The notes beneath the pieces were generated by a model. The model saw nothing but the letters and a program-made list of their open reading frames with translations. It did no database searches and was not told the origin of the DNA. Below are positions 3,001 through 22,999 of a DNA stretch of 64,000 nucleotides, one piece after another; within the stretch, counting starts at the first letter, position 1; each line of letters opens with the position of its first letter. The stretch lies in assembly GCF_003151135.1 (NCBI RefSeq), contig NZ_QEQK01000001.1, positions 230,829-294,828 of the forward strand, read 5' to 3'. The stretch is from Abyssibacter profundi. Its GTDB lineage: Bacteria; Pseudomonadota; Gammaproteobacteria; Nevskiales; OUC007. The position numbers and the translations under genes were made by a program.

Positions 3001-3867
3001 CCCGACCCGGCTGTGCGCGTGCTGCTGGAGGATCCGGCCACCGCTACGGTGACCATCGAGGACAATGAAACCCAGGTCCGCTTCGAGTCCGATCGCTATA
3101 CCGCCGACGAAGGTGATGGCACGGCCACGTTGGTTGTTCAGCGCATCGGCATGGGTATGGGGACTGTCACCGTCGACTACGCGGTCAACGGCGGTACGGC
3201 TGACCGCAGTACCGACTACACCGTCGCCGACGGCACCCTCACCTGGAGCAATGGGGATACCGCCAACAAGACCATCCGGGTTTCGCTGATCGACGACGCA
3301 ACCGCCGAACGAACCGAAACCCTGGTGATGTCCTTGTCGAACGTGACCTTCACCGATGAGGCCACTCCGCTTGGTGATCCGGCGAGCGCCGTCTTGTCGA
3401 TTACGGACAACGATGACGCCGGCTTTGTCGTGGAATCCACGTCCGGCTCTCTGACCGTCACCGAAGGGGGCCCCGCCGCTGCAGCCACTGTCGCGCTGAC
3501 CTCACGCCCGTTGGCCGATGTCACTGTGAGCTTCGAGACGCCGTCTCGGGTGACGGTTCGCACCGCCAATTCGGCCGACAACACGCGGCTGGTCTTCACG
3601 CCATCCAACTGGAACATCAGCCAGACTGTCGAGCTGCTGGCCGTGGATGATGCCGAGGTCCAGGCCACCGTGACGCAGACGGTCACCGCGCGGACGCAAA
3701 GCCTCGACACCGCCTACGACAATCTGTCGGATACGCTGGATGTCACCATCGAGGACAACGATGGCCAGACCTCCGGTGGCGGCGGCGGTTCCGGCGCCTT
3801 CGGGGGCAGTTGGCTGCTGGCATTGATCGGCCTCGGTCTGCTGCGACGCCGCAGGCTGATGCACTAG
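1..3867 (+). CDS. Calx-beta repeat surface protein with GlyGly-CTERM tail (5' partial)
   Basis: The reading frame is open from base 1, so the start lies upstream of the window; the GTG at 67 is only an internal valine. About 1288 residues are visible. They form one partial and nine full Calx-beta repeats of roughly 110-118 residues. Each has a DYxxxxGTxxWxDGE-type core and ends in an acidic DDDS/DNDS turn. A divergent beta domain follows (about 3420-3760). The tail is a Gly-rich run, a hydrophobic stretch and RRRR (3775-3855), the GlyGly-CTERM signal that rhombosortase is known to cleave in other gammaproteobacteria. Calx-beta repeats bind calcium and stack into long fibres, so a secreted or surface adhesin or matrix role is inferred. 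A terminator follows at 3886. Confidence 0.9.
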   Translation, partial: DRLGIRFTDTTFVSDRENGGTIVATVERVGAATQAAQVDISTAQLDPVSAESDVDYQAKTEVVTWAAGDDTPKTVTFSVIGDSELEGDEQFQLVLDNEINAILVEPSTATAVITDDDSAVALDAATYAVIENEGVVTVSLTRTGAFGEISVDYATTDGSAVAGTDYTATNGTVTWLDGESGAKTVTVAVLNDDAPESAKDFSLTLSNPQPAGTVTLVDPTTTTITIADDDSIIEMDAPTLSVDEDGGTVTVSATRSGAALGPASVTIATSDGTATSGIDYDQTMAGLSWVDGETGSKSVSIAILDNDDVDGDLAFSVSLSAPTPSDRTHLGTQTQTDITIVDNDSIIELVAATATALESDGSLVISATRTGSFGAATVNYATADGSAQAGTHYTAASGTFEWANGEDGTKSVTISLTDDAEVNADRDFSLSIDTPSPSADVQLGSTTTTAVTLTNDDSTVTLTTAAVAAPEGDGQIVFLAERTGDFGAATIDFATADGSATAPDDYTANSGSVSWNDGEAGQKMITVTIADNDVVDADRDFSLTLSNPDPNTRVRLGAIETATATIQDDDTVITLDAATASAIESDGTVTLTATRSGTRGTATVTVRTADGSAADGVHYTGVDSSLSWADGEDGSKSITVEIADDLVVNADRDFTLSISNPMPSGLVQLGAVTQSAITVVNNDSSIAMEVASTSAVETDGTVTLRAIRTGGFGAASVDFATVDGSAQAGTHYTAASGTLNWADGQTGAMEFAVTLQDDSDINADRDFSVQLSNPTPGTRVVLAAQASTTVTVRNDDAAFSMIAPTVSVEEGDATVSIAVQRVGSDVGEFSVLVSTTDGTATAPANYTAFSERVVWNDGDAESKTVNITLQDDSEVNDDRNFSVQLSAPEPSASTTITADDTTVVTVVDDETTVAFATATYTVVEGGSVEISVTRAGSTSGAASVNYSTVDGTAVAGSHYTAASGTLTWADGDDSPQMFTVDVADDSTLNADRQFTIELSQPDPAVRVLLEDPATATVTIEDNETQVRFESDRYTADEGDGTATLVVQRIGMGMGTVTVDYAVNGGTADRSTDYTVADGTLTWSNGDTANKTIRVSLIDDATAERTETLVMSLSNVTFTDEATPLGDPASAVLSITDNDDAGFVVESTSGSLTVTEGGPAAAATVALTSRPLADVTVSFETPSRVTVRTANSADNTRLVFTPSNWNISQTVELLAVDDAEVQATVTQTVTARTQSLDTAYDNLSDTLDVTIEDNDGQTSGGGGGSGAFGGSWLLALIGLGLLRRRRLMH

Positions 3868-3885
3868 GCCACCCCGCCGCATCCA

Positions 3886-3917
3886 AGCCCCGCAGTGCAG
3901 ACTGCGGGGCTTTTTTT
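3886..3917 (+). terminator. Rho-independent terminator of the Calx-beta gene
   Basis: A perfect 10-bp stem (AGCCCCGCAG at 3886-3895, CTGCGGGGCT at 3902-3911) encloses a six-base loop and is followed by seven T. It lies 19 bp after the stop of the repeat protein. It also argues against any putA start upstream of about 3918. Confidence 0.93.
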
Positions 3918-4001
3918 GTCCAGACCGCTTCGGTCAAAGCACGGATTCCTCGCCAGGCCCGCACGGCGCTAAGATGCGGTTTTGACGACGGGACTGTTGC
4001 C

Positions 4002-7000
4002 GTGCCGCTAGCCCTAGACGCCTATTACCTCGCCGACGAAACCCGCGTGGTTGAGCAGTTGCTCGCCGTCAGCAACGTGTCTGCCGAGGAATCCGCTGCC
4101 ATTTGTGCGCAGGCCGAACAGCTCGTCGAGGGTGTTCGACGCCGTCGCGACGAGCAGTCACCGCTGGATGCCTTCATGCAGGAGTACGACCTGTCCTCCG
4201 AAGAGGGCGTCCTCCTCATGTGCCTGGCCGAAGCGCTGCTCAGAATTCCGGATGAAGACACCGCGGAACGGCTCATCGCCGACAAGCTGGGCGATGCCAA
4301 CTGGCAATCGCACCTGGGGCGTAGCGAGTCGCTGTTCGTCAATGCCTCCACCTGGGGGCTCATGCTCACCGGACGGATCGTCCGTGTGCCAACGCGGGAC
4401 GCCGGCGCCTGGCGCGGCATGCTGGACAAGCTAATCGCCGGCAGCTCCGAACCGGTCATCCGCACGGCGCTGCGGCAGGCCATGCGGATGATGGGTAGCC
4501 AGTTCGTCATGGGCCGGAGCATCGAAGACGCCCTGAAACGCGCAGGCAAGCAGCCGGACGGACGGATTCGGCATTCGTTCGACATGCTGGGCGAAGCCGC
4601 CCTGACCGCTGCCGATGCCGACCGCTACTTCGATGCCTATGTCCACGCCATCCAGACCATCGGCAATCGACTGGGTGCGGCCGGTGATGTCATCACCGGG
4701 CCCGGTATTTCGGTGAAATTGTCGGCCCTGCACCCCCGGTATGAGTACAGCCAACGAGACCGCGTGCTGAGCGAGCTACCGGAGAAACTGCTCGCGCTTT
4801 GTTCCGCAGCCCGCGACGCCAATATCGGCCTGACGGTCGATGCCGAAGAGGCCGACCGTCTGGAGTTGGCGCTAAGCGTGTTCGAAACCGCCTACCGCCA
4901 CCCGTCGAACCGGGGCTGGGATGGCCTGGGCCTGGCCTGTCAGGCGTATCAGAAGCGCGCCCTGCCCCAAATCGAATGGCTCACCGACCTGGCCCGCGAT
5001 ATGCGCCGCCGCATGCCTGTCCGACTGGTCAAGGGCGCCTACTGGGATACCGAAATCAAACGTGCCCAGGAGCAGGGTCTAAGCGGTTACCCGGTGTTCA
5101 CACGCAAGTGCAGCACCGATGTGTCCTACCTGGCCTGCGCCCGCGCGCTGCTCGGGGCACGCGATGTGTTCTACCCACAGTTCGCGACCCATAACGCCCA
5201 TACGGTTGCGGCCATCCATGCGTTTGCCGACGACGGTCGGGACCGCCCCCGCGACAGTTACGAATTCCAGCGCCTGCATGGCATGGGCGAAGCCCTCTAC
5301 CAGGAAGTGCGCGAGCGCTATCCAAATGCCGGTTGCCGCATCTACGCCCCGGTGGGTTCACATGAAGACCTGCTGCCCTATCTGGTCCGGCGACTACTGG
5401 AAAACGGCGCCAATACCTCGTTCGTGAATCGCATCCTCGATGCCTCCATCCCCGTGGAGGACGTGGTCGATGATCCGGTGAGTGAACTGCGCAGTGTGAC
5501 CCCCAAGCCGCATCCAGGCATCGCCCTGCCGACGGCCATTTATCCGGATCGCCGCAACTCCGGCGGGCTCAATCTCGCCGTGGCCACAGAGCGCAGCACC
5601 GTTGGTCAGGCAGTCGCCTCACTGGACCAGTCACCGGTCCACGTCCCGCCCAGCACCGCATCAAGCCCGGCCGTCGAGGTCGTCTGCCCGGCCAATCTGC
5701 TCCGCACCGTGGGTCGCTGGCATCCGGCAACCGCGGCAGATGTCGATCAGGCCGCAACAAAGGCCTCTCAAGCGTTTGACCGCTGGGCTGCCCGCCCGGT
5801 GGACGACCGGGCAGCCTGCCTGGAGCGAGCCGCTGACGGCATCGAGGCACAGCGCCACGCCCTCATGGCATTGCTGATCCGCGAGGCGGGCAAGACCCAC
5901 GCCGATGCGCAGGCCGAGGTCCGCGAAGCCGCCGATTTCTGCCGGTACTATGCCGCCCGCGCCCGCGAACTGATGCAGGCGCCGACGCCACTGCCTGGCT
6001 ATACCGGCGAGACCAACAGTCTGCGCCATGCACCCCGGGGGGTCATGGTCTGCATCAGTCCGTGGAATTTCCCGTTGGCGATCTTCGCCGGCCAGGTCGC
6101 CGCCGCTCTGGTCGCCGGAAACTGTGTGCTGGCCAAGCCGGCCGAACAGACGACACTGGTCGCCCATGCCATGTGTACGATTCTGCGCGACGCAGGCGTG
6201 CCGACGCAGGCCCTTCATCTGCTGCCAGGCACGGGGGAACACCTGGGTCCGGCACTGCTGGCCATCCCACAGCTCGCGGGCGTCCTGTTCACCGGTTCCA
6301 TGGACACCGCCCGCCTGATCAATCAGCAATTGGCCCAGCGCCCGGGCCCCATCGTGCCGCTAATCGCGGAAACCGGCGGGCTGAACGCAATGATTGTGGA
6401 TTCCTCCGCATTGCCCGAGCAGGTCGTCAAGGACAGTCTTCAATCCGCATTTGGCAGCGCGGGTCAGCGTTGCTCGGCCCTGCGTGTCCTGTGCCTGCAA
6501 GATGACATCGCCGAGCGAGTGCTCCCGATGCTCGCGGGGGCCATGCAGGAGCTCATCGTCGGGGATCCCGCGGAGATCGCAACCGATGTCGGACCGGTCA
6601 TCGACACCGAAGCCCTGGACCGGCTACGCCAGCATCGCGAACGCATGGATCGCGAAGCCCGGCGTATTGCCGCGGTCCCCAGCGCCAACGCCGCGGGCCA
6701 CTTCTTTCCACCGGTGGCCTACGAAGTGGACAGTCTTGAGCACATTGGCGGCGAAGTGTTCGGCCCGGTCCTCCATGTACTGCGCTATGACGACGAGCGG
6801 CTGGACGAGCTGGTCGATGCCATTAACCGTCTGGGATACGGCCTGACACTGGGCGTGCACAGCCGGATCGAATCGACCTGGCGCCGGGTGAGCGAACGGG
6901 CGCGGGTGGGCAACTGCTACATCAATCGAAACATGGTCGGCGCTGTGGTGGGTGTCCAACCCTTTGGTGGAGAAGGGCTTTCCGGCACCGGGCCGAAGGC

Positions 7001-7100
7001 GGGTGGCCCGGATTATCTGCGCCGCCTCACCACGGAACGCACGCTGACGATCAACACCGCTGCGGTCGGCGGCAACGCGCATTTGCTCACGCTGGAATAA
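4002..7100 (+). CDS. putA: Bifunctional proline dehydrogenase / P5C dehydrogenase PutA
   Basis: PutA oxidises proline to glutamate through pyrroline-5-carboxylate in two linked active sites. The product is about 1032 residues, the short PutA type without an N-terminal RHH DNA-binding domain, so it should not repress its own gene. The FAD-binding proline dehydrogenase barrel carries RLVKGAYWD (about residue 341), FATHNAHT and QRLHGMGEALY. The aldehyde dehydrogenase half carries SPWNFP (about 682), the catalytic Glu in ETGG (790) and the nucleophile Cys in GQRCS (824), and ends in a conserved C-terminal flap. GTG 4002 is chosen because the longer in-frame ORF (from 3810) would run through the preceding terminator. 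No strong Shine-Dalgarno is seen, so the exact start is uncertain. It stands alone as a transcription unit. Confidence 0.95.
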   Translation: MPLALDAYYLADETRVVEQLLAVSNVSAEESAAICAQAEQLVEGVRRRRDEQSPLDAFMQEYDLSSEEGVLLMCLAEALLRIPDEDTAERLIADKLGDANWQSHLGRSESLFVNASTWGLMLTGRIVRVPTRDAGAWRGMLDKLIAGSSEPVIRTALRQAMRMMGSQFVMGRSIEDALKRAGKQPDGRIRHSFDMLGEAALTAADADRYFDAYVHAIQTIGNRLGAAGDVITGPGISVKLSALHPRYEYSQRDRVLSELPEKLLALCSAARDANIGLTVDAEEADRLELALSVFETAYRHPSNRGWDGLGLACQAYQKRALPQIEWLTDLARDMRRRMPVRLVKGAYWDTEIKRAQEQGLSGYPVFTRKCSTDVSYLACARALLGARDVFYPQFATHNAHTVAAIHAFADDGRDRPRDSYEFQRLHGMGEALYQEVRERYPNAGCRIYAPVGSHEDLLPYLVRRLLENGANTSFVNRILDASIPVEDVVDDPVSELRSVTPKPHPGIALPTAIYPDRRNSGGLNLAVATERSTVGQAVASLDQSPVHVPPSTASSPAVEVVCPANLLRTVGRWHPATAADVDQAATKASQAFDRWAARPVDDRAACLERAADGIEAQRHALMALLIREAGKTHADAQAEVREAADFCRYYAARARELMQAPTPLPGYTGETNSLRHAPRGVMVCISPWNFPLAIFAGQVAAALVAGNCVLAKPAEQTTLVAHAMCTILRDAGVPTQALHLLPGTGEHLGPALLAIPQLAGVLFTGSMDTARLINQQLAQRPGPIVPLIAETGGLNAMIVDSSALPEQVVKDSLQSAFGSAGQRCSALRVLCLQDDIAERVLPMLAGAMQELIVGDPAEIATDVGPVIDTEALDRLRQHRERMDREARRIAAVPSANAAGHFFPPVAYEVDSLEHIGGEVFGPVLHVLRYDDERLDELVDAINRLGYGLTLGVHSRIESTWRRVSERARVGNCYINRNMVGAVVGVQPFGGEGLSGTGPKAGGPDYLRRLTTERTLTINTAAVGGNAHLLTLE

Positions 7101-7203
7101 ATCACCACGGGCCAATCAGCCCTGCCGGGGAACTTGTTGTCACTTTGATGCTCCCACCCTCCAGGGAGAGGGATGTCGCATCAGGGATGAATAGGACATC
7201 AAC

Positions 7204-8754
7204 ATGCCCACGGCTTGTCGACCCGTTTCGGGTGAGCGCCCCGGCCGCCTCATCGCGTTGCTGAGTGCCGGCTTGTGCTTGCTTGCACCATGGCCCATCC
7301 GCGCCAATGCAGTGACCGACTACCCCTCGTTGGTCGAGCACGCCAGAACCCTTGCCCAGCAGGCTTATGAACCCCGTCAGGTCACGCTGCCCCCGGCTCT
7401 CCAGGGCCTGGACTACGATGCCTACCGCGACATCCGGTTCCGCCCGGATCAGTCGATCTGGCGAGGACAGGACCTGCCCATCGAGGCGCAGTTCTTTCAC
7501 CTGGGCCTCTACTACGACACGCCCGTGCAGATCCACCTGCTCACCGCGGATGGCGTGCAGACCGTTGACTACACCACCAACCTCTTCGACTACGGCAGCA
7601 ACCCGACGCCCACGGATGTCGACCAGCACATGGGCTTCGCCGGTTTTCGCCTGCACTACCCGCTGAATCGCCCCGACTACAAAGATGAGCTGATCATCTT
7701 CCATGGCGCCAGCTACTTCCGCTCGCTAGGCGCGGGCCAATGGCTTGGTCTGTCCGCACGTGGGCTGGCCATCGACACGGGGGAGCGCTCCGGAGAGGAA
7801 TTCCCCGTCTTCACGCAGTTCTGGATCGAGTGGCCACGACGGGATGCGCGTCAGTTCCGCATTCTCGCGTTACTCGAGAGCCAGAGCGTCACCGGGGCCT
7901 ACGAGTTTCTCGTTACGCCCGGCACAACGACGACCACCGAGGTGCGCGCCACGCTGTTCCGGCGAGGCGAGTTCACGAAGATCGGCCTCGCGCCGCTCAC
8001 CAGCATGTTCCAGTACGGGGAAGAAGTGCCACGCCCGCCCCATGACTTCCGTCCCGAGGTCCATGATTCCGACGGCCTGCTCATTCACGCGGGAGACGAA
8101 TGGTTGTGGCGTGGCCTGGTCAACCCTGCGCGTCTGACCATCAACGCATTCCAAACCGATCAGTTGCACGGGTTCGGCCTCATGCAGCGGGATCGCGACT
8201 TTTCCAGCTACCAGGACCTGGAGGCGCACTACCATCAACGCCCCAGCGCGTGGATCACACCACAGGGTGACTGGGGTGAAGGGTCCGTCGAACTGGTGCA
8301 AATCCCCACTCAGAATGAGGTCAACGACAACATCGTGGCCTATTGGCGACCCAAGGCGCCTTGGCCGGCCGATGAACCTCTGGAGTTCCGATATAGGATC
8401 GCTTGGCAACACGCCGAACTGGCCGGCCCCGATGCCGGTCGAGTCATCGCGACCCGCATCGCGCGCGCCGCTGAACTGGATGGCCTGCACCGCTATGTCA
8501 TCGACTTCGCGGGTCCAGCCCTCTCTGAACTTCCTGAAGATGTGGAGCTCACACCCGACCTGGGTTTCCCCCCGCATTTCGTCGTGGCGGAGCAGATCGG
8601 CTTCCGCAATCCGGAAACCGGCGGATGGCGACTGGTCATCCGCGGCAAGCTCAAACCGGAATCCGGCCAGCCGGCCGAACTCAGGGCGAGTCTGCTGACG
8701 CCCGAGCGCCAACGCGTCACCGAAATCTGGACCTACACCGAGCCGGGCAACTAA
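7204..8754 (+). CDS. opgG: Periplasmic glucan biosynthesis protein OpgG
   Basis: This is a 516-residue secreted protein of the OpgG/OpgD family, close to the usual length of about 511. It acts in the periplasm on linear beta-1,2 glucan backbones to form osmoregulated periplasmic glucans. A signal peptide covers residues 1 to about 36 (hydrophobic core LIALLSAGLCLLAPWP, likely cleavage after ANA). The start of the mature part (YPSLVEHARTLAQQAY), the DYDAYRDIRF block and a PIFTQFWIEWP-like segment are family hallmarks. AGGA lies seven bases before the ATG. The stop codon overlaps the opgH start (TAATG), so the two are translationally coupled. OpgD is the alternative name, but the linkage to opgH supports OpgG. 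Confidence 0.93.
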   Translation: MPTACRPVSGERPGRLIALLSAGLCLLAPWPIRANAVTDYPSLVEHARTLAQQAYEPRQVTLPPALQGLDYDAYRDIRFRPDQSIWRGQDLPIEAQFFHLGLYYDTPVQIHLLTADGVQTVDYTTNLFDYGSNPTPTDVDQHMGFAGFRLHYPLNRPDYKDELIIFHGASYFRSLGAGQWLGLSARGLAIDTGERSGEEFPVFTQFWIEWPRRDARQFRILALLESQSVTGAYEFLVTPGTTTTTEVRATLFRRGEFTKIGLAPLTSMFQYGEEVPRPPHDFRPEVHDSDGLLIHAGDEWLWRGLVNPARLTINAFQTDQLHGFGLMQRDRDFSSYQDLEAHYHQRPSAWITPQGDWGEGSVELVQIPTQNEVNDNIVAYWRPKAPWPADEPLEFRYRIAWQHAELAGPDAGRVIATRIARAAELDGLHRYVIDFAGPALSELPEDVELTPDLGFPPHFVVAEQIGFRNPETGGWRLVIRGKLKPESGQPAELRASLLTPERQRVTEIWTYTEPGN

Positions 8755-13812: not shown

Positions 13813-16800
13813 TCAGGCAGCCACTTGGTTGACGGCCTGCAAACAGCTGATCAGTGCGTCCACTTCGGCATCGGCAAAAACTCCTTCAACGCCGTCGTGG
13901 TGCAAACCACTAAACGGCGGCTCGTAGAGCTGACCAGGGTCCATCAGCCCGTTTCTGGTCAGATGCTCGATGATCATCTGTACAAAGCGAATCTGTGTAC
14001 TGCTGTACCTGGACTCATCCAAGTACTCCGAAAACGCCTGCATCGCAGCGCTACGATCAAGCCCAACCATGGACCGGATCAATGCGGCTAGCGAGCGATC
14101 TTCGCCAAATGCTTCAACAAACTGGTCGCGCCCGCCGACCACATCGGACTCGTAGACGAAGCGCTCCAACTCATTCAGGTCCTGCGGCGTCAATGCAATG
14201 TTCCGTTTCAACCGCTCGATCGCAATGTGCTGCTCATGGTCTCGGATAAACGCTTCCACCTTGCGGCGGTATCGAGCGAGGTTGATGCCTGTCGTCGCAT
14301 CCAACAACTCGACTTCAGTGGCCTCCCCGATTTCATCCTGCAAAGCGGTGTAGACGGGGTGGATTGCTTGCCGGTCGATGAACTGGATTAGACCGCGCAG
14401 CTTGCGGCGAACAGTTTCAATCATCGGCAGCGAGACATCCTTCCAGAATGCATCGGTCTGAACGTCCTGAATCAGTGACAGCTCAGCATTGACCGCCGGT
14501 ATCGTGTCCTTGGTCTCCAAGGCCTCTGCAAATCCGATGATCCGATCCCGGTACTGTGGGTACTCTGAGGTTTCGTTTACCAGCGCCAGTTGTAGATGCA
14601 GACAGGTCAGATCGAAGAGCTTGGCTGTCATGTCGTCGGGAGGCAGTTCACTTGGCAACCCGGCCACATGGTCTCGCAGATCAACGAAATTCTCGTCTCC
14701 GATGTGCTCCCACGCAGACCGCTCCCGATAGCGCAACACGAATTCACCCGCAGGGCGAACGATGAAGTTCTGCAGGTTCATCGCCGCGACCTCTCGCTGC
14801 AGATCATCCGCCAACTGCGCCCGCAGAGTACGAAGCCCGCCGTAGTCGCCAGGCTCGTCTCGAACTACAACCGCGTCATCTGATGCCCGCGCCGGCAAAG
14901 CGGTCAGCAGCTCCAGGCGGCGCTTAAACAAGCGCTTGCCGAGCGGCTCTGCGGCAGATGCTGCCGCGCCCTCGGGGTGCTCATTGAAATATTCGAAGTT
15001 TCCGCAGAAATCGAAGATCAGGAACGCCTCCTTGTCCTGCCCTGGGCCAAACAAGTCCGAGCACAACCGAGTTCCCCGCCCGATCATCTGCAGAAACTTC
15101 ACCTTTGACCGCACCGCCTTGAAGAAGACCAGATTGACGACCTCGGGTACGTCGATGCCGGTGTCCAGCATGTCCACGCTGATCGCGATCTGCGGCAGCT
15201 TGGCGGCATCGCTGAAGTCGTCGATCAGGCTTTGCGCGTAGCTGACGGAGTGCGTGATCACGCGCGCGAATGCGCCGTTGTACTGCGGGTAGTTGCGATC
15301 GAACCGCTCCGCAATGAAGTTTGCGTGCCGCTGGTTCACGGCGAAGATGATGGTCTTGCCGATGGTGTCACCGCCGTCCACGCGCAGGCCGTGCTCCATC
15401 AGGTGCTGCAGCATCAAGTCAACGGTGTGCTCGTTGTAGAGCTTCTTGTTGATGTCGGCGGCGTGGACGGCATCGGGCACGTCATCGTCGTCACGGTCGC
15501 CCCAGTCCAGCGATTCCCAGTGCTCCTTTTCCTGGTCTGACAACTCGTCGTACCGAATCCCCTCCCGGACGAACTTGATGGGCACCGACTGCGCACGGGG
15601 CGGCACCAGATACCCATCATCCACGGCCTCATCCAGGCTGTAGGCATCCGTCGGCACCCCGGTTTCCAGGCCGAACAGCCGGTAAGTGTCGAAGTCGACC
15701 TCGTCCCGCGGGGTTGCGGTCAGTCCCACCAGCAGGCTGTCGAAGTAGCGGAAGATGGCCCCGTACTTCTGGTAGACGCTGCGGTGGGCCTCGTCGATGA
15801 TGATCACGTCGAAGTGCCCGACACCGTAGGCGCGCCGCTCACCGTCGAGCTGGTCGATCAACCCCATCATGGTCGGGTAGGTGGACAGGTAGACGCGGCC
15901 CTGCCCGGCCTTGTCCGTCACCAGATTGACCGGGCTGGAATCCGGCAAATGGGTCTTGAACGCATTGGTGGCCTGTTTGACCAACGCCACGCGGTCGGCC
16001 AGAAACAACACCCGCTTGGCGAGGTTGGCCCGCATCAGCACATCGACCAAGGCGATGGCCGTGCGCGTCTTGCCCGTTCCGGTGGCCATGGTCAGCAATC
16101 CGGCCCGCTTGCCGCTGTCGAAGCTCTCGCTCATGGAACGGATTGCGCGGTGCTGATAGGGACGCTCGACGATGTCGCTGTTGATGGCCAGCGATCGCAG
16201 CGGTTGCACGATGTCGCGCCGCGTGATGGCCAGGGCCAGCTCGTCGCGGGTGTAGAAACCCTGCACCTGACGCGGCGGCGCACGCCGGTCGTCCCACAGC
16301 CAAGTCTGATGCCCGTTGGTGTAGAAGATCAGCGGCCGCTGGCCCTTCATCGCTTGGAGGCAATCGGCGTACAGCTTGGCCTGTTGCTGCCCGACTTCAG
16401 GATCTTTCATCGTGCGTTTGGCTTCGACGACAGCCAGAGGCTTGCCGTCGGTTCCCCATAGCACGTAATCGGCAAAGCCCTCGCCCTGGCTGTTCGGCAT
16501 ACCCTCCAGCGGCACCTCCTCGCCCGCCGTCTGCCCGACGACCCAACCGGCTTCGCGTAGCAGCACGTCAATGAGCAACCGACGCGTGTCGGCCTCGTTG
16601 TAGTCGTGCTCGTCCGGCACGGCGATGTTGGCGGCCTTGGCCTCGGCCAGCGCCGCGCGCGCCGCGGCCAACTCCGCGTTGAGCTCAGCCAGTTGTGCTT
16701 CGCGTTCCTCCAGCGTGGCGGCCGATTCGGCAATGGCCGCTTCCCGCTGCTCGATGGCCTCATGCTGCTCGCGAATCTGGGCCTGGAACCGTTCTTCGGC

Positions 16801-17301
16801 AGCTTGCAACTCGGCCTTGCTCAGAGCCCGTGCCTGTTCAGCCGCCTCGTCGGCGGACACCAGCTTGGGCACACGGCTATCGTCGAACCGCGCATCAATG
16901 GCCTTCGGATCGCTGGCGCGTGTATAAGTCCGCGCCAGCCAGAACATGACGTGAAACAGCTCACGCACCAGCTTGAGTGCGTCACCCGGATGCACAAAGC
17001 GATTCGAATGCACGGCCTGATTGCCGAACTTCTGGATCAGCCGCATCTTCTGGTGAATGCGATCTGGCACCAGCCGCTCGAACTGCTGATGGGTTAGCAG
17101 CGCGTTGAGCTGGTTGTCGTACGGCATCCGCAGGTCACGGTCGTGCTCGTAGAGCCAGTGCACGGCCTGCTCCAGTGCATGGCGGATGCGCATGCAGCAC
17201 GCCCGGGCGTCGGAATGCACCAGCGCCTCCGCCGCAATCGCGTGGGCGTGTAGTGGCTTGAACTCGGCGGCCAGGAACTGGAAGTTTGACGCTGAGTTCA
17301 T
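13813..17301 (-). CDS. hsdR: Type I restriction endonuclease subunit R with N-terminal DUF4145
   Basis: HsdR is the ATP-driven translocase and nuclease of a type I restriction-modification enzyme. The product is 1162 residues. Residues 1 to about 130 match DUF4145 (ALEQAVHWLYEHD, GNQAVHSN), followed by a coiled coil (about 165-225). The HSDR_N nuclease fold has ADYVLWGTDGKP and the VVEAKRT catalytic Glu-x-Lys. The helicase has GTGKT (about 408-412), IIDEAH (about 503), a LTATPRDE motif and the conserved QMIGRGTRLC. The C-terminal EcoEI-type domain completes it. Its start is 10 bp after the PIN gene stop, so it lies at the end of the island transcript. hsdM and hsdS are about 3 kb upstream, separated by three inserted genes. 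Confidence 0.93.
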   Translation of the reverse strand: MNSASNFQFLAAEFKPLHAHAIAAEALVHSDARACCMRIRHALEQAVHWLYEHDRDLRMPYDNQLNALLTHQQFERLVPDRIHQKMRLIQKFGNQAVHSNRFVHPGDALKLVRELFHVMFWLARTYTRASDPKAIDARFDDSRVPKLVSADEAAEQARALSKAELQAAEERFQAQIREQHEAIEQREAAIAESAATLEEREAQLAELNAELAAARAALAEAKAANIAVPDEHDYNEADTRRLLIDVLLREAGWVVGQTAGEEVPLEGMPNSQGEGFADYVLWGTDGKPLAVVEAKRTMKDPEVGQQQAKLYADCLQAMKGQRPLIFYTNGHQTWLWDDRRAPPRQVQGFYTRDELALAITRRDIVQPLRSLAINSDIVERPYQHRAIRSMSESFDSGKRAGLLTMATGTGKTRTAIALVDVLMRANLAKRVLFLADRVALVKQATNAFKTHLPDSSPVNLVTDKAGQGRVYLSTYPTMMGLIDQLDGERRAYGVGHFDVIIIDEAHRSVYQKYGAIFRYFDSLLVGLTATPRDEVDFDTYRLFGLETGVPTDAYSLDEAVDDGYLVPPRAQSVPIKFVREGIRYDELSDQEKEHWESLDWGDRDDDDVPDAVHAADINKKLYNEHTVDLMLQHLMEHGLRVDGGDTIGKTIIFAVNQRHANFIAERFDRNYPQYNGAFARVITHSVSYAQSLIDDFSDAAKLPQIAISVDMLDTGIDVPEVVNLVFFKAVRSKVKFLQMIGRGTRLCSDLFGPGQDKEAFLIFDFCGNFEYFNEHPEGAAASAAEPLGKRLFKRRLELLTALPARASDDAVVVRDEPGDYGGLRTLRAQLADDLQREVAAMNLQNFIVRPAGEFVLRYRERSAWEHIGDENFVDLRDHVAGLPSELPPDDMTAKLFDLTCLHLQLALVNETSEYPQYRDRIIGFAEALETKDTIPAVNAELSLIQDVQTDAFWKDVSLPMIETVRRKLRGLIQFIDRQAIHPVYTALQDEIGEATEVELLDATTGINLARYRRKVEAFIRDHEQHIAIERLKRNIALTPQDLNELERFVYESDVVGGRDQFVEAFGEDRSLAALIRSMVGLDRSAAMQAFSEYLDESRYSSTQIRFVQMIIEHLTRNGLMDPGQLYEPPFSGLHHDGVEGVFADAEVDALISCLQAVNQVAA

Positions 17302-17310
17302 TGCGGTTTG

Positions 17311-17880
17311 CTACAGCAATGCCAGCCAGTCAGCGTATCGATCCGCGGTACGCGGCAGGCCCGACTTGCGCAGGTGCGACACATACTCCTCCGGGGAATA
17401 CGGCGGGTTGGCCAAACGCGAGCGAACGCGCTTGGCCGATTCACAGGTGCGCGGTGCATCCAGATCAAACTGATACGTGACGAAGTCGTCGGGATGAATC
17501 GCCTCCAGACCGAGCGCATCCATGACCTCGCGCGGGAAATCCTTCAGGTTGAACGTGATAATTGCATCAGCCCGGCAATGAAGCGCAGCGGCCACCACGT
17601 GGCGGTCATCCGCGTCCGGCAGCTCGATGGTTGGAATCAGATACTGATAACCGTCGACCAGCGCGTCCTGGGAGTAGGCGTCCATGTGTCGGCGCGTGTT
17701 GGCAAGACGCTCCGCTGTCAGATCCGGGCGGTTGTCGAGCACGCTCCGAATCCATTCGTCATGGATTTCGTCCGACCAGTGCGACTTGTACAAGCCGGCG
17801 ACCGCAAGTTCCATCAACAGATCACGAACCGCGGCCGGATAGAGCACACATGCGTCGAACACGACCCGGAAGCGGTTCAT
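17311..17880 (-). CDS. PIN domain protein, VapC-like toxin
   Basis: The product is 189 residues with a PIN-type RNase fold. An N-terminal acidic residue sits in VVFDACVLYP (D9), a central acidic cluster in ELPDADDRHVVAAA, and the last strand in ADAIITFNLKDFP. PIN domains of this size usually cut RNA and act as toxins of type II toxin-antitoxin pairs. It starts seven bases after the HTH gene, the expected antitoxin-toxin order, and ends 10 bp before hsdR. The pairing with a DNA-binding HTH protein suggests an addiction module inside the R-M locus. A role in the R-M function itself is possible but unproven. Confidence 0.85.
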   Translation of the reverse strand: MNRFRVVFDACVLYPAAVRDLLMELAVAGLYKSHWSDEIHDEWIRSVLDNRPDLTAERLANTRRHMDAYSQDALVDGYQYLIPTIELPDADDRHVVAAALHCRADAIITFNLKDFPREVMDALGLEAIHPDDFVTYQFDLDAPRTCESAKRVRSRLANPPYSPEEYVSHLRKSGLPRTADRYADWLALL

Positions 17881-17887
17881 GCAAGCC

Positions 17888-18340
17888 TCAGTACCCCAGG
17901 CCCAGGCGTTGTGCCTCCGCGGTGAGTTCAGCCAACGCCTCCCGGCGTTTGGTCAACTGCGTCTCGCGATAGCGCAGGACGTCCTCGGCGCGCACGCGCC
18001 GATGGCTACCCACCTTGATGTAAGCAATGTCGCCCGACTCCAGCAATTTGATCAGATACGGGCGGGATACGTTCAGCAGGTCGGCTGCCTGTGAGGTGGT
18101 CAGCTCCGCGTGTACGGGCACCAGCGTGACTGCATTGCCTTCAGCCATTTCGGCGAAGATGCGGTTGAGCATGCGCACGACATACACCGGCAGTTCGAGC
18201 GCTTCATCACCGCCGTTGGCTTGCAACCGCACGTGGCACTGATCGGTCTCGACCATCTCGGCAAGCCGGCGTTGCAGTTGTTTCGCTTGCTCTTGCTCTT
18301 CTTGGGAGGGAAGAGACAGATTGCCGTCATCGTCTGCCAT
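17888..18340 (-). CDS. HTH excisionase-family protein, probable antitoxin of the PIN toxin
   Basis: The product is 150 residues. A MerR/excisionase-type helix-turn-helix spans about residues 76-125 (ELTTSQAADLLNVSRPYLIK, then HRRVRAEDVLRYRE). The N-terminal part is acidic and Gln-rich (coiled-coil-like), and the C-terminal tail is Ala/Glu-rich. A perfect GGAGGT ribosome binding site lies five bases before the ATG. It is followed seven bases later by the PIN gene. Antitoxins of this class bind their own operator, and a 9-bp tandem repeat overlaps the promoter just upstream. Confidence 0.82.
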   Translation of the reverse strand: MADDDGNLSLPSQEEQEQAKQLQRRLAEMVETDQCHVRLQANGGDEALELPVYVVRMLNRIFAEMAEGNAVTLVPVHAELTTSQAADLLNVSRPYLIKLLESGDIAYIKVGSHRRVRAEDVLRYRETQLTKRREALAELTAEAQRLGLGY

Positions 18341-18374
18341 GTCTGACCTCCAAATTCAGCTACGCCGGCCCTCA

Positions 18375-18403
18375 AGTATAGCTGCTAAACGAAATAAACG
18401 AAA
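18375..18403 (-). promoter_or_regulatory. Promoter and tandem operator-like repeat of the HTH-PIN pair
   Basis: On the minus strand a strong -10 (TATACT, 18380-18375) lies 35 bp before the HTH start codon. Directly upstream, covering the spacer and -35 area, is a perfect 9-bp tandem repeat: on the plus strand TAAACGAAA twice (18386-18403). A good -35 hexamer is not visible, which fits a regulated promoter. Autoregulation by the HTH protein is inferred. Confidence 0.5.
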
Positions 18404-18407
18404 CACG

Positions 18408-20300
18408 CTAGGCCGCTTGTCCACTGCCAGTCGCCTCAGCCTGGCTGCGCCGAGCAACTGCCTGAATGGAGTCCGCGACCCGCTGCGTGAATGCCGATTC
18501 GTCACGGCAGGTCATCACCAGGTGCTCCATGGCGCGGGTCATGGCCACGTACAGCAACCGCGCCTCATCGGATTCTGACTCGCCCTTCTTCGGCATCTGG
18601 CACAGGTCCGGGATGATCACGAGCCCGAACTCCAGCCCCTTGCTGGAGTGCATGCTCACCAGCTTGACCGTCTGCCCGTCGGCGTACAGGCCGGTCTTGC
18701 CGGATCGGCTGGCCGTGGATGTGACCGGCACACCGGCGCCCTTCAGCGCGCGCTCCAGCGCACTGGCTTGCTTGCCGGAGCGGTAGATCACCGCAATATC
18801 GTCGTAGTCCCGCCCCTGCCCATTGGCGTCGACAATCCGCTGGACCACGCAATCCATCTGCTGCCAGTGTCCCTCGCAGCGGATCAATTCCGGGAAGGGC
18901 CCGCTGCGGCCCGCCGTCTCCGGCGCAATCGTCGGCACCCCGTCGTCATCACCGGTGGTCTCGGACAGCAATTCGCTGGCGAACAGCTTGGCCACCGACA
19001 ACACCTCGGCGGTGTTGCGGTAGTTCACCTTCAGGATCGTCGTGCGCCCCCGCGCCTGAATGCCCACGCTGGCAAAGCTGAAGTCCAGCTCGCGCTTCTT
19101 GCGGTGGTAGATCGACTGGGCATCGTCGTAGAGCACGAGCAGTGAGTCGGTATCGGGGTCGATCATCTGCACGACCAGCCGGAACCAATCCGGCTCGAAG
19201 TCGTGGCCCTCGTCGATCAGCACGGCGCTGTACTGGGCGCGGGGAATCTGTCCGCGCTCGACACCTGCCATGGTGGTCTCGACCAGCGCCGCCACGTACT
19301 GGCCCGCATTGCCCTTGTTGGCGGGTTTGGGCACATGAAACGCCCGGAGCATATCGCCGCACCAGCCGTGGAAGTGCCGCACGACGACTTGCTCGCTCAG
19401 GCCGCGCTCGCCCATCACCTGCTGCAAGCGCGCGGCCAGCGCCTTGTTGTAGCAGAGCACCAGCACCGGCTTGCTGGACAGCTGCGACAGATACGCCGCC
19501 CGGTAGCCCAGGATCATGGTCTTGCCCGAACCCGCCGCGCCATGAATCACGCGGTGGCCCGCCCCCAGCGAGCGCGCCAGTTGCTCCTGCTGCAAGTCCA
19601 TGACCTTGACCAAATCGGGTACGGACTCGGGCGTGGTCTCCAGCGGCAAACCGAACTGCCCCAGTTGCGGGTTGACCCGCACCTCGGGAAACAAATGCCA
19701 GCGCACCCGGTCGATCTGCGGCAAGGTGAGCTGGCACGGGAACACATGGTGGAACATGCCCCATAGCCGTTCCTGAAACGCCTCGTCGTCCACCGACTCG
19801 GTCATCTCGTCCTTGCAGATCACACGCACCGGCTGCAGCACCTCGCCCAGGTCGGTGGACTCGAACTGCTGCCGCGTGATGTTTGATAACACCACACCCC
19901 AGGCAAACGGCATGATCAGCTTGCCCTGATACGCCGAGCCGCCTTCACGCACCAGCCGCGGGTCCTGCTCCAGCACCTTGGCCGTCTCCAGCGCATACAC
20001 GCTGGCCTGGAGCATCGGGTTCTTCACCTTCTTGATGCCGCCGTGGACGACAATCCGCGCCTCGCTCTTGTCGATGGTCGCGATGGTGTCCAGCTTCCAG
20101 TCCTTGACCTCCAGCACCAGCCAGCCACGCAGCGGATGCAGCACGATAAAGTCCGGCCGCAAGGCCTTGGGGCCGACCGGCACGTCGTACCAGCACAGGT
20201 AATCGTCCTCCAGCTTCTTCTCCAGCCGCTCGGCCAAGCGCCTCTCGCCGGAGGTCATCCGGTGCAGGCAGCTGGTGCGGGCGGGGAAGAACTGCGCCAT
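18408..20300 (-). CDS. NERD domain / UvrD-Rep family (SF1) helicase
   Basis: The product is 630 residues. The N-terminal NERD nuclease-related domain (about 1-130) includes LRPDFIVLHP and LVLEVKDWKLD, which supply the Asp and Glu-x-Lys expected of the fold. The SF1 helicase core follows: GAAGSGKT (about 247), LIDEGHDF in the Walker B position, VKLVSMHSSKGLEF and LLYVAMTRAMEHL in the second RecA domain. Such proteins are thought to nick or unwind nucleic acid. It begins six bases after the hsdS frame, so it is co-transcribed with the R-M genes, and an antiphage or DNA-processing accessory role is inferred. Confidence 0.87.
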   Translation of the reverse strand: MAQFFPARTSCLHRMTSGERRLAERLEKKLEDDYLCWYDVPVGPKALRPDFIVLHPLRGWLVLEVKDWKLDTIATIDKSEARIVVHGGIKKVKNPMLQASVYALETAKVLEQDPRLVREGGSAYQGKLIMPFAWGVVLSNITRQQFESTDLGEVLQPVRVICKDEMTESVDDEAFQERLWGMFHHVFPCQLTLPQIDRVRWHLFPEVRVNPQLGQFGLPLETTPESVPDLVKVMDLQQEQLARSLGAGHRVIHGAAGSGKTMILGYRAAYLSQLSSKPVLVLCYNKALAARLQQVMGERGLSEQVVVRHFHGWCGDMLRAFHVPKPANKGNAGQYVAALVETTMAGVERGQIPRAQYSAVLIDEGHDFEPDWFRLVVQMIDPDTDSLLVLYDDAQSIYHRKKRELDFSFASVGIQARGRTTILKVNYRNTAEVLSVAKLFASELLSETTGDDDGVPTIAPETAGRSGPFPELIRCEGHWQQMDCVVQRIVDANGQGRDYDDIAVIYRSGKQASALERALKGAGVPVTSTASRSGKTGLYADGQTVKLVSMHSSKGLEFGLVIIPDLCQMPKKGESESDEARLLYVAMTRAMEHLVMTCRDESAFTQRVADSIQAVARRSQAEATGSGQAA

Positions 20301-20306
20301 GTCAGG

Positions 20307-21518
20307 TCACGCGGCTTGGCTCAGTTGGCCGGAGAAGGCGCGTTGCTGGAGGGAGGCGAGCAATTCATCTTGCTTGCTACCGGAATACGCTAGTTCCATT
20401 CGACGATGTCGGATAACACCACACAGCTGCTCAAACCGTCGTTGCATGGGCAATGGCGGGAGCGGCAAAACAAGATCCCTGATGTTCTTCAGACTTATGT
20501 TCGCTCGAGCCGCATCAACCTTCCCGCCAAGCAACCTATTCTGACCGCTCGGGGTCAGAAGCATTGCCATAACGAAGTCGACCGAAATTCGCGTCCGGTC
20601 CAAAGTCACAGTCGCTACAGCCTGATTTATGTTTGCCGGCAATAAGTCGTCTTCCATGATGGAGAGACGACCGATTGACGCTCCCACAAGATTAATTAGC
20701 AAATCGCTACTCTTAAGGCGCGACCGGCAAATTTTATCGTCAAAATCGCTGGGAATGAATTTGTCTTTTCTAATCATCCTTCCCCGACCGACGTTCTCGC
20801 TGGTGATGAAGCGCACACCATCGTCGCAGTATTCGAAACCCTGCCATTTTGGACTTTCGCCTTTGGTTATACGTTCCGCCAAGGAACCTACTGGCACCTC
20901 CGCCCACCCCTTCGGATTCGTCACCGGATCGCCAAACATGTCCAGAAACACGGACTGCAGGAGTTGATCGAGCTTGGCGATGGCTTCGCGGCGCTTGGCG
21001 CGCAGCGCGTCGGCCTTGTCCAGAATCGCCGCGATGCGACGTTGTTCGGGGAGTGGGGGGAGTGGGATTTCTAGTTCGTTAAGGTGTTCGTTGCGCAAAT
21101 TGTTGATGTTTGCACCGGCCGCGAGACTGGAAACCTTCTGCCTGTATTTCTTGGTCTGGAATTATTGAGCAAAGTAGCCCGCGTCTACAGCATCGCTCGG
21201 CCTTAATACTTTGCAGAATGCACCAAAGCCGCCGTCGAAATCGGCCAACGACCGGGCAGCTTTTCCGACAACATCAAGGCTGCCGCTAGATGCAGCGATC
21301 ACGACGTCGTTCTTACGAACTTTTTGCTTTCCGGAAACTTTGCCTTCTGGAATGTAGACGAGGCCATCCGAAGTAAGCCCAAATTCCGTTATGTTATTGG
21401 CTCGGAGAACAGGCAGATATTGTTCGCGCGGGGTCGTGACGGCATCAGCTTTCGAGTAAGTCACGCCACGAATTTGTTCGCAGATATCACCGACTCTCAC
21501 TATAGGCACAGCAGTCAA
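20307..21518 (-). pseudogene. hsdS: Type I specificity subunit HsdS interrupted by an in-frame TAA
   Basis: HsdS sets the DNA target of a type I enzyme. The frame runs 404 codons from a TTG start at 21518, which overlaps the hsdM stop (TTGA). Codon 119 is TAA (21164-21162). Before it lies a first target-recognition domain (LPVLRANNITE). After it, in the same frame with no shift, come KYRQKVSS, NINNLRNEHL, the IPLPPLPEQRRIAAIL helix, FGDPVTNPKGW, a second recognition domain and LPPLPMQRR. The context GYFAQ-stop-FQTKKYRQ suggests a Tyr codon (TAT/TAC) changed to TAA. The whole would be about 403 residues, a normal HsdS size. Possible outcomes are a dead gene, a half-subunit from a downstream start such as TTG 21098, readthrough, or a sequencing error. 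Confidence 0.85.
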
Positions 21519-22999
21519 GACAACATCCCCTCCAACTCCTCCATCCCCTGCATGATCTCGGCTTCCAACGCCTTCAACTCGGCCAGAATCTGCTGCGGCG
21601 GGTCGTACTGCACTTCCTCGTAGACGACTTCCTTGTAGCGGTTGATCGACAAGTCGTAGTCGTTATCGGCGATCTCGGCCTTGGGCACGACGAAGCTCTG
21701 CTCGGTGCGGGCGCGGTCGGCCTCGGCGTCGCGGTGCTGCCAGCGCTGCAAGATGTCCGGCAGGTTGTTGGTGGCGTGCTGGGTCTGATCCAGCGCCGTG
21801 CGCTTGTCGTCCAGCGAGTAACCATCGGCCTGCATGTCGTAGAACCAGACGCCGTCGGTGCCGCCGGAGTCGGTCCGGGTGAACAGCAGGATGGCGGTGG
21901 ACACCCCGGCGTAGGGCTTGAACACGCCGGAGGGCATGGAGACGATGCCGTCCAGCTTGTGGTCCTCGACCAGAGCCTTGCGCAGGGTTTTGTGGGCCTT
22001 GGATGAGCCGAACAACACGCCGTCCGGCACGATGACGGCGGCGCGGCCACCGGGTTGCAGCAGGCGCAGGAACAGCGCGAGGAACAGCAGCTCGGTCTTC
22101 TTGGTCTTGACGACCTTCTGCAAGTCCTTGGCCGTGCTCTCGTAATCCAGCGACCCGGCGAACGGCGGGTTGGCGAGGATCAGGCTGAACTGCCCTTCCA
22201 CGCTGGCGTGGCCTTCGCTGAGCGAATCACGATTCTCGATGGCCGGGTTCTCCACGCCATGCAGCAGCATGTTCATGGAGCCGACGCGCAGCATGGTGCT
22301 GTCGAAGTCGAAGCCGTGGAAGGTGTCGCGGTTGAAGCGCGCCGTGGACTGTTTGCTGGCGTAGATCTCGGCCTGGTGGTGGTCGTACAGGTACTCGCTG
22401 GCGGCCACCAGGAAGCCGGCCGTGCCGCAGGCCGGGTCGCAGATGGTGTCCGCCGGCTTGGGCGCCATCATCTCGACCATGAGCTTGATGATGTGCCGCG
22501 GCGTGCGGAACTGGCCGTTCTGGCCGGCGCTGGCGATCTTGCCCAGCATGTATTCGTAGAGATCGCCCTTGGTGTCGCGATCGTCCATGGGGATGGCGTC
22601 CAGCATGTCCACCACCTTGGCCAGCAGCGCCGGCGTCGGGATGGTGAAGCGGGCATCCTTCATGTGCGCGGAGTACGTGGAATCCGCCTCCCCGCCGCCC
22701 AGTCGCTTGATAAAGGGGAACACCTCATCGGCAATGGTGTTGTAGAGCGTTTGCGGGTCTCCCAATTCGCGAAAGCGGGACCAGCGCAGCCGCTGCTCAC
22801 CTGGCCCGAAGATCGGGCGCTCGATGGGCCGACCGAGCCGGGTGGCCTTTTTCTCTCGCAGGGTGTGCAGTTCGTCCAATCGCTTGATGAACAACAGATA
22901 GGTCATCTGCTCAATGACCTCCAGCGGGTTGCTGATACCGCCGCTCCAGAAGGCATCCCAGATGCGGTCAACCTGATGCTTGATATCGCCTGTGATCAT
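21515..22999 (-). CDS. hsdM: Type I R-M DNA methyltransferase subunit HsdM
   Basis: HsdM is the N6-adenine methyltransferase subunit that works with HsdS to modify host DNA. The product is 494 residues, a normal size. The N-terminal HsdM helical domain (IKHQVDRIWDAFWSG, IEQMTYLLFIKRLD) precedes the SAM-binding motif CDPACGTAGF (about residue 186) and the catalytic NPPF motif (about 275). It starts 18 bp after the zorD stop with no room for a promoter, so it is probably read through from the Zorya genes. Its stop overlaps the hsdS start by four bases. Confidence 0.95.
   Translation of the reverse strand: MITGDIKHQVDRIWDAFWSGGISNPLEVIEQMTYLLFIKRLDELHTLREKKATRLGRPIERPIFGPGEQRLRWSRFRELGDPQTLYNTIADEVFPFIKRLGGGEADSTYSAHMKDARFTIPTPALLAKVVDMLDAIPMDDRDTKGDLYEYMLGKIASAGQNGQFRTPRHIIKLMVEMMAPKPADTICDPACGTAGFLVAASEYLYDHHQAEIYASKQSTARFNRDTFHGFDFDSTMLRVGSMNMLLHGVENPAIENRDSLSEGHASVEGQFSLILANPPFAGSLDYESTAKDLQKVVKTKKTELLFLALFLRLLQPGGRAAVIVPDGVLFGSSKAHKTLRKALVEDHKLDGIVSMPSGVFKPYAGVSTAILLFTRTDSGGTDGVWFYDMQADGYSLDDKRTALDQTQHATNNLPDILQRWQHRDAEADRARTEQSFVVPKAEIADNDYDLSINRYKEVVYEEVQYDPPQQILAELKALEAEIMQGMEELEGMLS

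Follow-up and report, generated by a model that had tools for sequence, protein, structure and literature searches.

Within a type I restriction-modification (R-M) locus of Abyssibacter profundi, a gene for an excisionase-type helix-turn-helix (HTH) protein and a gene for a PIN-domain protein stand immediately before hsdR, which raises the question of how this pair is controlled and whether its control extends to restriction. We analysed the locus within a 64,000-nucleotide stretch of genomic DNA (the window). All genes of the locus lie on the minus strand and read in one direction with small gaps, in the order zorABCD, hsdM, hsdS, NERD+UvrD, HTH, PIN and hsdR. The hsdM gene (21515-22999; PADLOC MTase_I, 651 bits) is followed by hsdS (20307-21518; Pfam and sequence), a NERD+UvrD helicase gene (18408-20300; PADLOC C3a187, 612 bits) that is the upstream neighbour of the pair in the hsdS-hsdR interval, the HTH gene (17888-18340), the PIN gene (17311-17880) and hsdR itself (13813-17301), which encodes an EcoAI/EcoEI-like R subunit of 1162 residues (Pfam ResIII, EcoEI_R_C and HSDR_N; PADLOC REase_I, 563.6 bits). 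The initial annotation had placed the end of the PIN gene 10 bp before hsdR; the PIN gene does directly abut hsdR, but the gap is 9 bp (17310-17302). The gap of 67 bp between NERD/UvrD and HTH is the longest from zorD through hsdR, and contains GTTTCGTTTATTTCGTTTAGCAGCTATACT, then GGAGGT and then the ATG of the HTH gene. Upstream, zorABCD (30355-23018), which PADLOC assigns to Zorya type I, is a complete-looking system on the same strand that ends 18 bp before hsdM. The hsdS gene has an in-frame TAA (21164-21162) at codon 119 of 404, with the remainder still in frame. By sequence this is either a nonsense change that would inactivate the system or a division into two half-subunits, so the R-M system may be unable to restrict unless half-subunits work.

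The PIN protein (189 residues) is ribonuclease-like, matching Pfam PIN_3 with 35.2 bits (cut-off 27) and an NCBIfam PIN family, RSP_2648, with 138 bits, which is below its cut-off of 170. Five acidic residues, D9, E42, D89, D92 and D114, were invariant in an alignment of 19 rows, and Foldseek returned VapC4 (5h4h, E 1e-3), pointing to a VapC-like fold. The HTH protein (150 residues) matched Pfam HTH_17 with 47.3 bits (cut-off 27) and TIGR01764 with 52.9 bits (cut-off 28.8). Its AF2 model (pLDDT 91.4) consists of a helix (13-29), two strands (34-41 and 44-51) and a further helix (52-66), followed by a winged HTH (wHTH) at about 79-117 and a C-terminal helix (118-145). When this model was compared with solved structures using Foldseek, DNA-bound BldC chains (6ama and 6amk) came first, along with RdfS, Pukovnik Xis and MerR-type regulators, with probabilities near 1 and E values of 0.09 or worse. 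VIA-align gave Z 7.4 with BldC. As Z scores of about 7 were common to Xis, BldC and classical MerR proteins and Foldseek E values were at least 0.09, the fold does not set BldC apart from the others. Sequence searches of solved structures with the HTH protein, an HTH profile and a PIN profile found no relative.

Relatives of the PIN protein were gathered from 8 of 41 relatives, 21 of 274 genomes of the class, 80 loci of a species-genome collection and 311 plasmid records; viral contigs, searched with the PIN query, which detects close relatives only, gave no match. Twenty stretches were taken from the genomes with PIN matches, leaving out short or partial matches in G001, G197, G260, G128, G099 and G107 and the second match in G198. 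An HTH homologue was present directly upstream of the PIN gene at every one of the 101 loci compared (the window and L030-L129) and at all 8 plasmid loci opened, in agreement with the antitoxin-toxin order first proposed, and the gap between the two genes was usually less than about 15 bp. In the nearest relative of the pair (L030, 9700-10225; HTH 63 percent identical) the PIN gene is split over two overlapping frames. Four of the 8 plasmid copies lie beside other toxin-antitoxin (TA) genes. On a Vibrio alginolyticus plasmid the pair is found among DUF3265 ORFs, as in integron cassettes.

This constant pairing corresponds to a class predicted by Makarova et al. in 2009, MerR-PIN (or PIN-MerR), characterised by a truncated MerR-like HTH protein with a small extra N-terminal domain, an adjoining PIN gene and enrichment on plasmids (PMC2701414). 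In the window a MerR-related HTH gene adjoins a PIN gene, and a small N-terminal domain precedes the wHTH in the AF2 model. We conclude from sequence and predicted structure that the pair is a member of this predicted type II TA class, and we infer the toxicity of the PIN protein and its neutralisation by the HTH protein. The same combination, Excise TIGR01764 with PIN_3 pfam13470, has been listed as TA 11 in Acidithiobacillus ferrooxidans (PMC4226512), and a MerR-PIN pair has been noted in Rhodococcus equi (PMC10669575). The accessible text of a Synechocystis TA list contains no HTH-PIN pair of the present type, and PIN_3 modules described in Tn3 elements have an RHH-type antitoxin partner. 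The present pair shares with VapBC the PIN fold, the acidic residues of the toxin and the position of the toxin gene as the second gene, but differs in its antitoxin, which is a MerR/BldC-like wHTH protein rather than an AbrB, RHH or Phd protein (only HTH_17 and TIGR01764 were found). As far as the accessible open-licence literature goes, MerR-PIN is treated as a predicted class and no operator is described for such a pair; the two reports that list the class (PMC2701414, PMC4226512) give neither an operator nor an experiment on the pair in their accessible parts, whereas here an operator is described and the pair stands before hsdR.

The candidate operator lies in the 67-bp gap upstream of the HTH gene. 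TTTCGTTTATTTCGTTTA (18403-18386, minus strand) is a perfect tandem duplication of the 9-bp unit TTTCGTTTA. The 64 kb contain just one other perfect tandem duplication of 9 bp, which is G-rich. The degenerate 18-mer of the repeat matched the window once without mismatch and three times in total with up to three mismatches (shuffle mean 0.20), and in the whole genome the exact 18-mer occurred once, together with one site with three mismatches. A perfect ribosome-binding site, GGAGGT (18351-18346), is present as first noted, 5 bp before the ATG. The promoter had also been credited with a strong -10 element. TATACT (18375-18380), 5 bp past the second repeat, does agree with the consensus -10 at 5 of 6 positions, but there is no good -35, the position 17 bp upstream being TTTCGT inside the repeat, and a scan of the minus strand listed neither a sigma-70 consensus site nor a terminator-like site in or just after the HTH-PIN module.

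The initial annotation had proposed that the repeat controls this promoter and that the same repeat should be sought before homologous pairs, where a general lack of any upstream repeat would speak against the proposal. For this search, three of the 101 pairs with less than 150 bp of upstream sequence and 16 that were more than 80 percent alike (PIN identity) were set aside, leaving 82 non-redundant loci. The motif TTKCGWWTR, first noticed in the early loci, was then counted within 260 bp upstream. At least one match was found at 70 of the 82 loci and at least two at 44, with 133 matches in the orientation of the gene and 2 against it. In 20 sets of dinucleotide shuffles the motif was found at 0 to 5 of the 82 loci (about 2 of 82), and in flanking DNA it was found in 118 of 9656 windows. 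Loci L050-L129, which were not used in forming the motif, gave 54 of 63, and the plasmid loci 6 of 8. Perfect-pattern 18-mers occurred upstream of 39 of the 82 loci versus 2 in 2.56 million strand-bases of flanks, and one of these two precedes another HTH copy. In L050 (9576-10117) such an additional HTH copy, accompanied by a double repeat, lies about 9 kb away from the first, and at L095 one flanking double site has no HTH homologue behind it. A perfect match to TTKCGWWTR was absent at 12 of the 82 loci, some of which have no obvious degenerate form either. Motif-bearing loci come from six phyla by record names and tree labels (Pseudomonadota, Cyanobacteriota, Planctomycetota, Chlamydiota, Myxococcota and Acidobacteriota), of which single labels may be wrong because many loci are metagenome bins; a Bacteroidota plasmid also carries the motif. 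From these comparisons we conclude that the tandem repeat of the window is not a product of chance. Since most of the relatives sampled have the same 9-base repeat in front of the pair, the antitoxin probably uses this repeat as the switch for its own operon, and in this respect the proposal of a repeat-controlled promoter gained support.

The arrangement of the repeats was regular in period and variable in number. Neighbouring matches were most commonly spaced by 9 bp (44 pairs), followed by 18 and 25 bp (10 each) and 16 bp (7). When runs were seeded by a perfect-pattern site and two mismatches were allowed, runs of 2, 3, 4 and 5 repeats were found at 38, 7, 23 and 1 of the 82 loci, respectively. 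Seven loci (L032, L033, L037, L100, L108, L113 and L128) have 9-7-9 operators with 16- and 25-bp spacings instead of a strict 9-bp tandem, as if one repeat copy had been trimmed to 7 bp. The distance from the last repeat to a -10-like hexamer varied, the first -10-like start lying most often 7 or 14 bp past the start of the last repeat; a fixed operator-promoter geometry was considered and dropped, as the -10-like starts scatter across loci.

The annotation of the HTH protein as excisionase-type and the swapping of cassettes at this place, described below, suggest another role for the repeats, namely that they form a recombination or integration site for the protein rather than an operator. 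A cassette moved in this way might be expected to carry the site at both edges, but the only exact copy in the window is at the left edge of the cassette, and the PIN-hsdR junction has no second copy. The copies moreover follow the orientation of the gene and are located in the promoter, and the same upstream repeats accompany the pair in unrelated contexts. We consider this reading highly improbable and rejected it.

Returning to the repeats as an operator, a precedent for binding to such an array is BldC of Streptomyces, a MerR-like wHTH protein whose protomers line up head to tail on the DNA, each on a 9-bp direct repeat, at sites of variable length and repeat number (PMC5859096). The promoter regions of the pairs likewise contain 9-bp direct repeats in variable number, and a period of 9 bp, a bias in orientation and runs of varying length together form the pattern that we would expect of a BldC-like binder. 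The repeat thus fits head-to-tail binding by a BldC-like wHTH, with one protomer per 9 bp. The HTH protein does not belong to the BldC family proper; BldC is a free-standing developmental regulator of 68 residues without a toxin partner and its consensus is AATTXXXX(C) rather than TTKCGWWTR (PMC5859096), whereas the present protein has 150 residues, with an N-terminal domain and the helix at 118-145. For a comparison of residues, 79 of the 82 HTH ORFs were placed automatically and 65 sequences were aligned. When the two proteins were matched by hand at the GxHRR motif, V110 was assigned to the place of BldC Leu43, where a hydrophobic residue is needed for the head-to-tail contact; it is V, I or A in 59 of 65 rows and T in 6. 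The place of BldC Arg30 has Lys in 34 of the 65 rows and a mixture of residues in the others.

The hsdS-hsdR interval has received cargo elsewhere. In E. coli, DarTG2 lies between hsdS and hsdR at what its authors regard as a potential recombination hotspot (PMC12255303), and in V. cholerae a type I locus harbours TgvAB (PMC11411939). The E. coli island resembles the present locus further in that its regulator, RptR, represses through several 9-bp direct repeats (PMC12255303). RptR differs in being a separate 79-residue dimer that heads the whole island and recognises a TAGCTA palindrome (PMC12255303), whereas the regulator here is the candidate antitoxin, a protein of 150 residues encoded inside the locus, and 18341-18407 contains no TAGCTA.

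To place the window among such loci, 51 hsdR rows (L130-L180) were compiled; 6 with less than 400 bp upstream were left out and 45, given as having at least 1,000 bp upstream, were counted. An HTH-PIN pair preceded hsdR in 4 of these 45 (the window, L132, L133 and L135), all from the order to which the window belongs. Two loci with related hsdR genes (L131 and L134; 70 and 62 percent) have hsdM-hsdS-hsdR without cargo. We then looked further into 20 hsdR loci, chosen by hand (L148, L151 and L153 as well as the distant loci with hsdM downstream were among those left out), and found the slot empty in 7 and filled in 13. The fillings were HTH-PIN with NERD/UvrD (L185), Fic with NERD/UvrD (L186), AbiEi/AbiEii, AAA_14-DUF4143 (twice), Fic (two more), RhuM (twice, once with a Fic match), UPF0175, an AAA ATPase (twice, once with HNH) and one unassigned pair. 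The same NERD/UvrD gene is found ahead of HTH-PIN-hsdR at L033 and L185, and ahead of Fic-hsdR at L186. Because L185 and L186 belong to one genus and their hsdR genes are both about 76 percent identical to that of the window, with HTH-PIN in one and Fic in the other, the module has been exchanged at one fixed place. We conclude that the interval is an already known cargo slot, and that this locus is, by its gene order, a clear case of cargo exchange.

The hsdM genes of L033 and L185 share 84-86 percent identity with that of the window, but HTH and PIN share only 45-50 percent. In a PIN tree the window groups with L030, which has no hsd gene within the stretch examined, and the other three hsdR-linked pairs cluster together. 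A single clade of hsdR-linked PIN proteins was rejected by the AU test (p 0.0152); the bootstrap was unsettled (0.988), and L030 entered the tree with just the longer of its two out-of-frame pieces. The tree indicates that HTH-PIN arrived in front of hsdR in at least two separate events. An hsd gene was near the pair at 11 of the 101 loci, a plain count that we do not claim as enrichment.

The initial annotation had further suggested that the HTH protein governs hsdR and thereby links toxin control to restriction control. Read-through from HTH-PIN into hsdR is plausible, because the cassette brings its own promoter, the gap is 9 bp and a scan of the minus strand between PIN and hsdR found no terminator-like site. 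The module therefore probably affects hsdR by position. The locus L032 (genome G016; 1484-8552) strengthens this case, as its HTH-PIN-hsdR unit follows an 819-residue ORF on the other strand that has no Pfam match. No hsdM was found in that genome, which is 93 percent complete, though the same tool found hsdR; perhaps this hsdR is an orphan kept with the TA pair. The hsdR gene of the window could also have a weak internal promoter.

Two accounts of how the pair came to stand before hsdR have to be weighed. The antitoxin may have been kept there by selection to set the level of restriction, such that loss of the antitoxin during phage infection would derepress toxin and restriction together. 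Such a circuit would explain why the order NERD/UvrD-HTH-PIN-hsdR recurs in the window, L033 and L185, why HTH-PIN-hsdR stands in L032 with no hsdM found there, and why the pair reached this place at least twice; and RptR, a small repressor acting on three 9-bp direct repeats, governs a type I R-M island in which a TA system is embedded (PMC12255303). However, the pair is present at only 4 of the 45 counted hsdR loci, all from a single order, and hsdR genes just as closely related are found without cargo (L131, 70 percent) or behind Fic (L186/L136, 76 percent). The hsdS of the window, moreover, has the in-frame stop. We regard a selected circuit of this kind as unlikely: the slot holds other cargo or none in relatives, the hsdR-linked pairs do not form one clade and few pairs lie near hsd genes, so that of the suggested governance of hsdR the read-through stands as plausible and a dedicated circuit is not favoured.

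Alternatively, the pair could be neutral cargo, an addiction module in a hotspot, with hsdR transcribed by read-through that starts upstream (zor/hsdM), just as at loci without cargo. This would account for the 7 empty slots and the 12 with other cargo among the 20 inspected, and for pairs that are widespread on plasmids and mostly have no hsd genes nearby. Against it, a promoter of its own and 9 bp to hsdR without a terminator make an effect on hsdR hard to avoid, and the L032 unit stands behind an ORF of opposite orientation. Neutral cargo is a real possibility, if somewhat short of an even chance.

The reading that we favour, and hold with reasonable confidence, is that of a MerR-PIN TA system that represses itself through the 9-bp repeats, forms a mobile cassette in the hsdS-hsdR slot and is co-transcribed with hsdR. 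According to this model the PIN ribonuclease would be the toxin and the 150-residue HTH protein the antitoxin, with its BldC/Xis-like wHTH in the middle and its N-terminal domain, its long C-terminal helix or both probably holding the toxin. By itself or together with the toxin, the antitoxin would assemble head to tail on the direct repeats, one protomer per repeat, occupy its own promoter from -35 to -10 and so repress it. The cassette would have entered the slot together with its operator and promoter, behind the NERD/UvrD gene, and hsdR, as part of the same transcript, would respond to the antitoxin by position. The comparisons show the gene content, the constant pairing, the conservation of the operator and the swapping of cargo, and from there binding, repression, toxicity, neutralisation and co-transcription are inferred.

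In sum, the pair belongs to an already predicted TA class and occupies a type of cargo slot that was known before; its very regular operator is newly described. A TA class that the accessible literature presents only as a prediction now has a concrete control element, conserved among the loci compared across six phyla and on a Bacteroidota plasmid. If binding is indeed head to tail, this antitoxin would be autoregulated in a way unlike the binding of a palindrome by a dimer. More tentatively, as a reading that is less likely than not, we suggest that MerR-PIN antitoxins in general polymerise head to tail on 9-bp repeats, that the number of repeats (2-5) sets the threshold of derepression, and that a downstream gene, here hsdR, becomes wired to loss of the antitoxin. 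Each cassette that enters the hsdS-hsdR slot may place hsdR under a new promoter and, if this wider reading is true, phage-induced loss of the antitoxin would raise toxin and restriction together.
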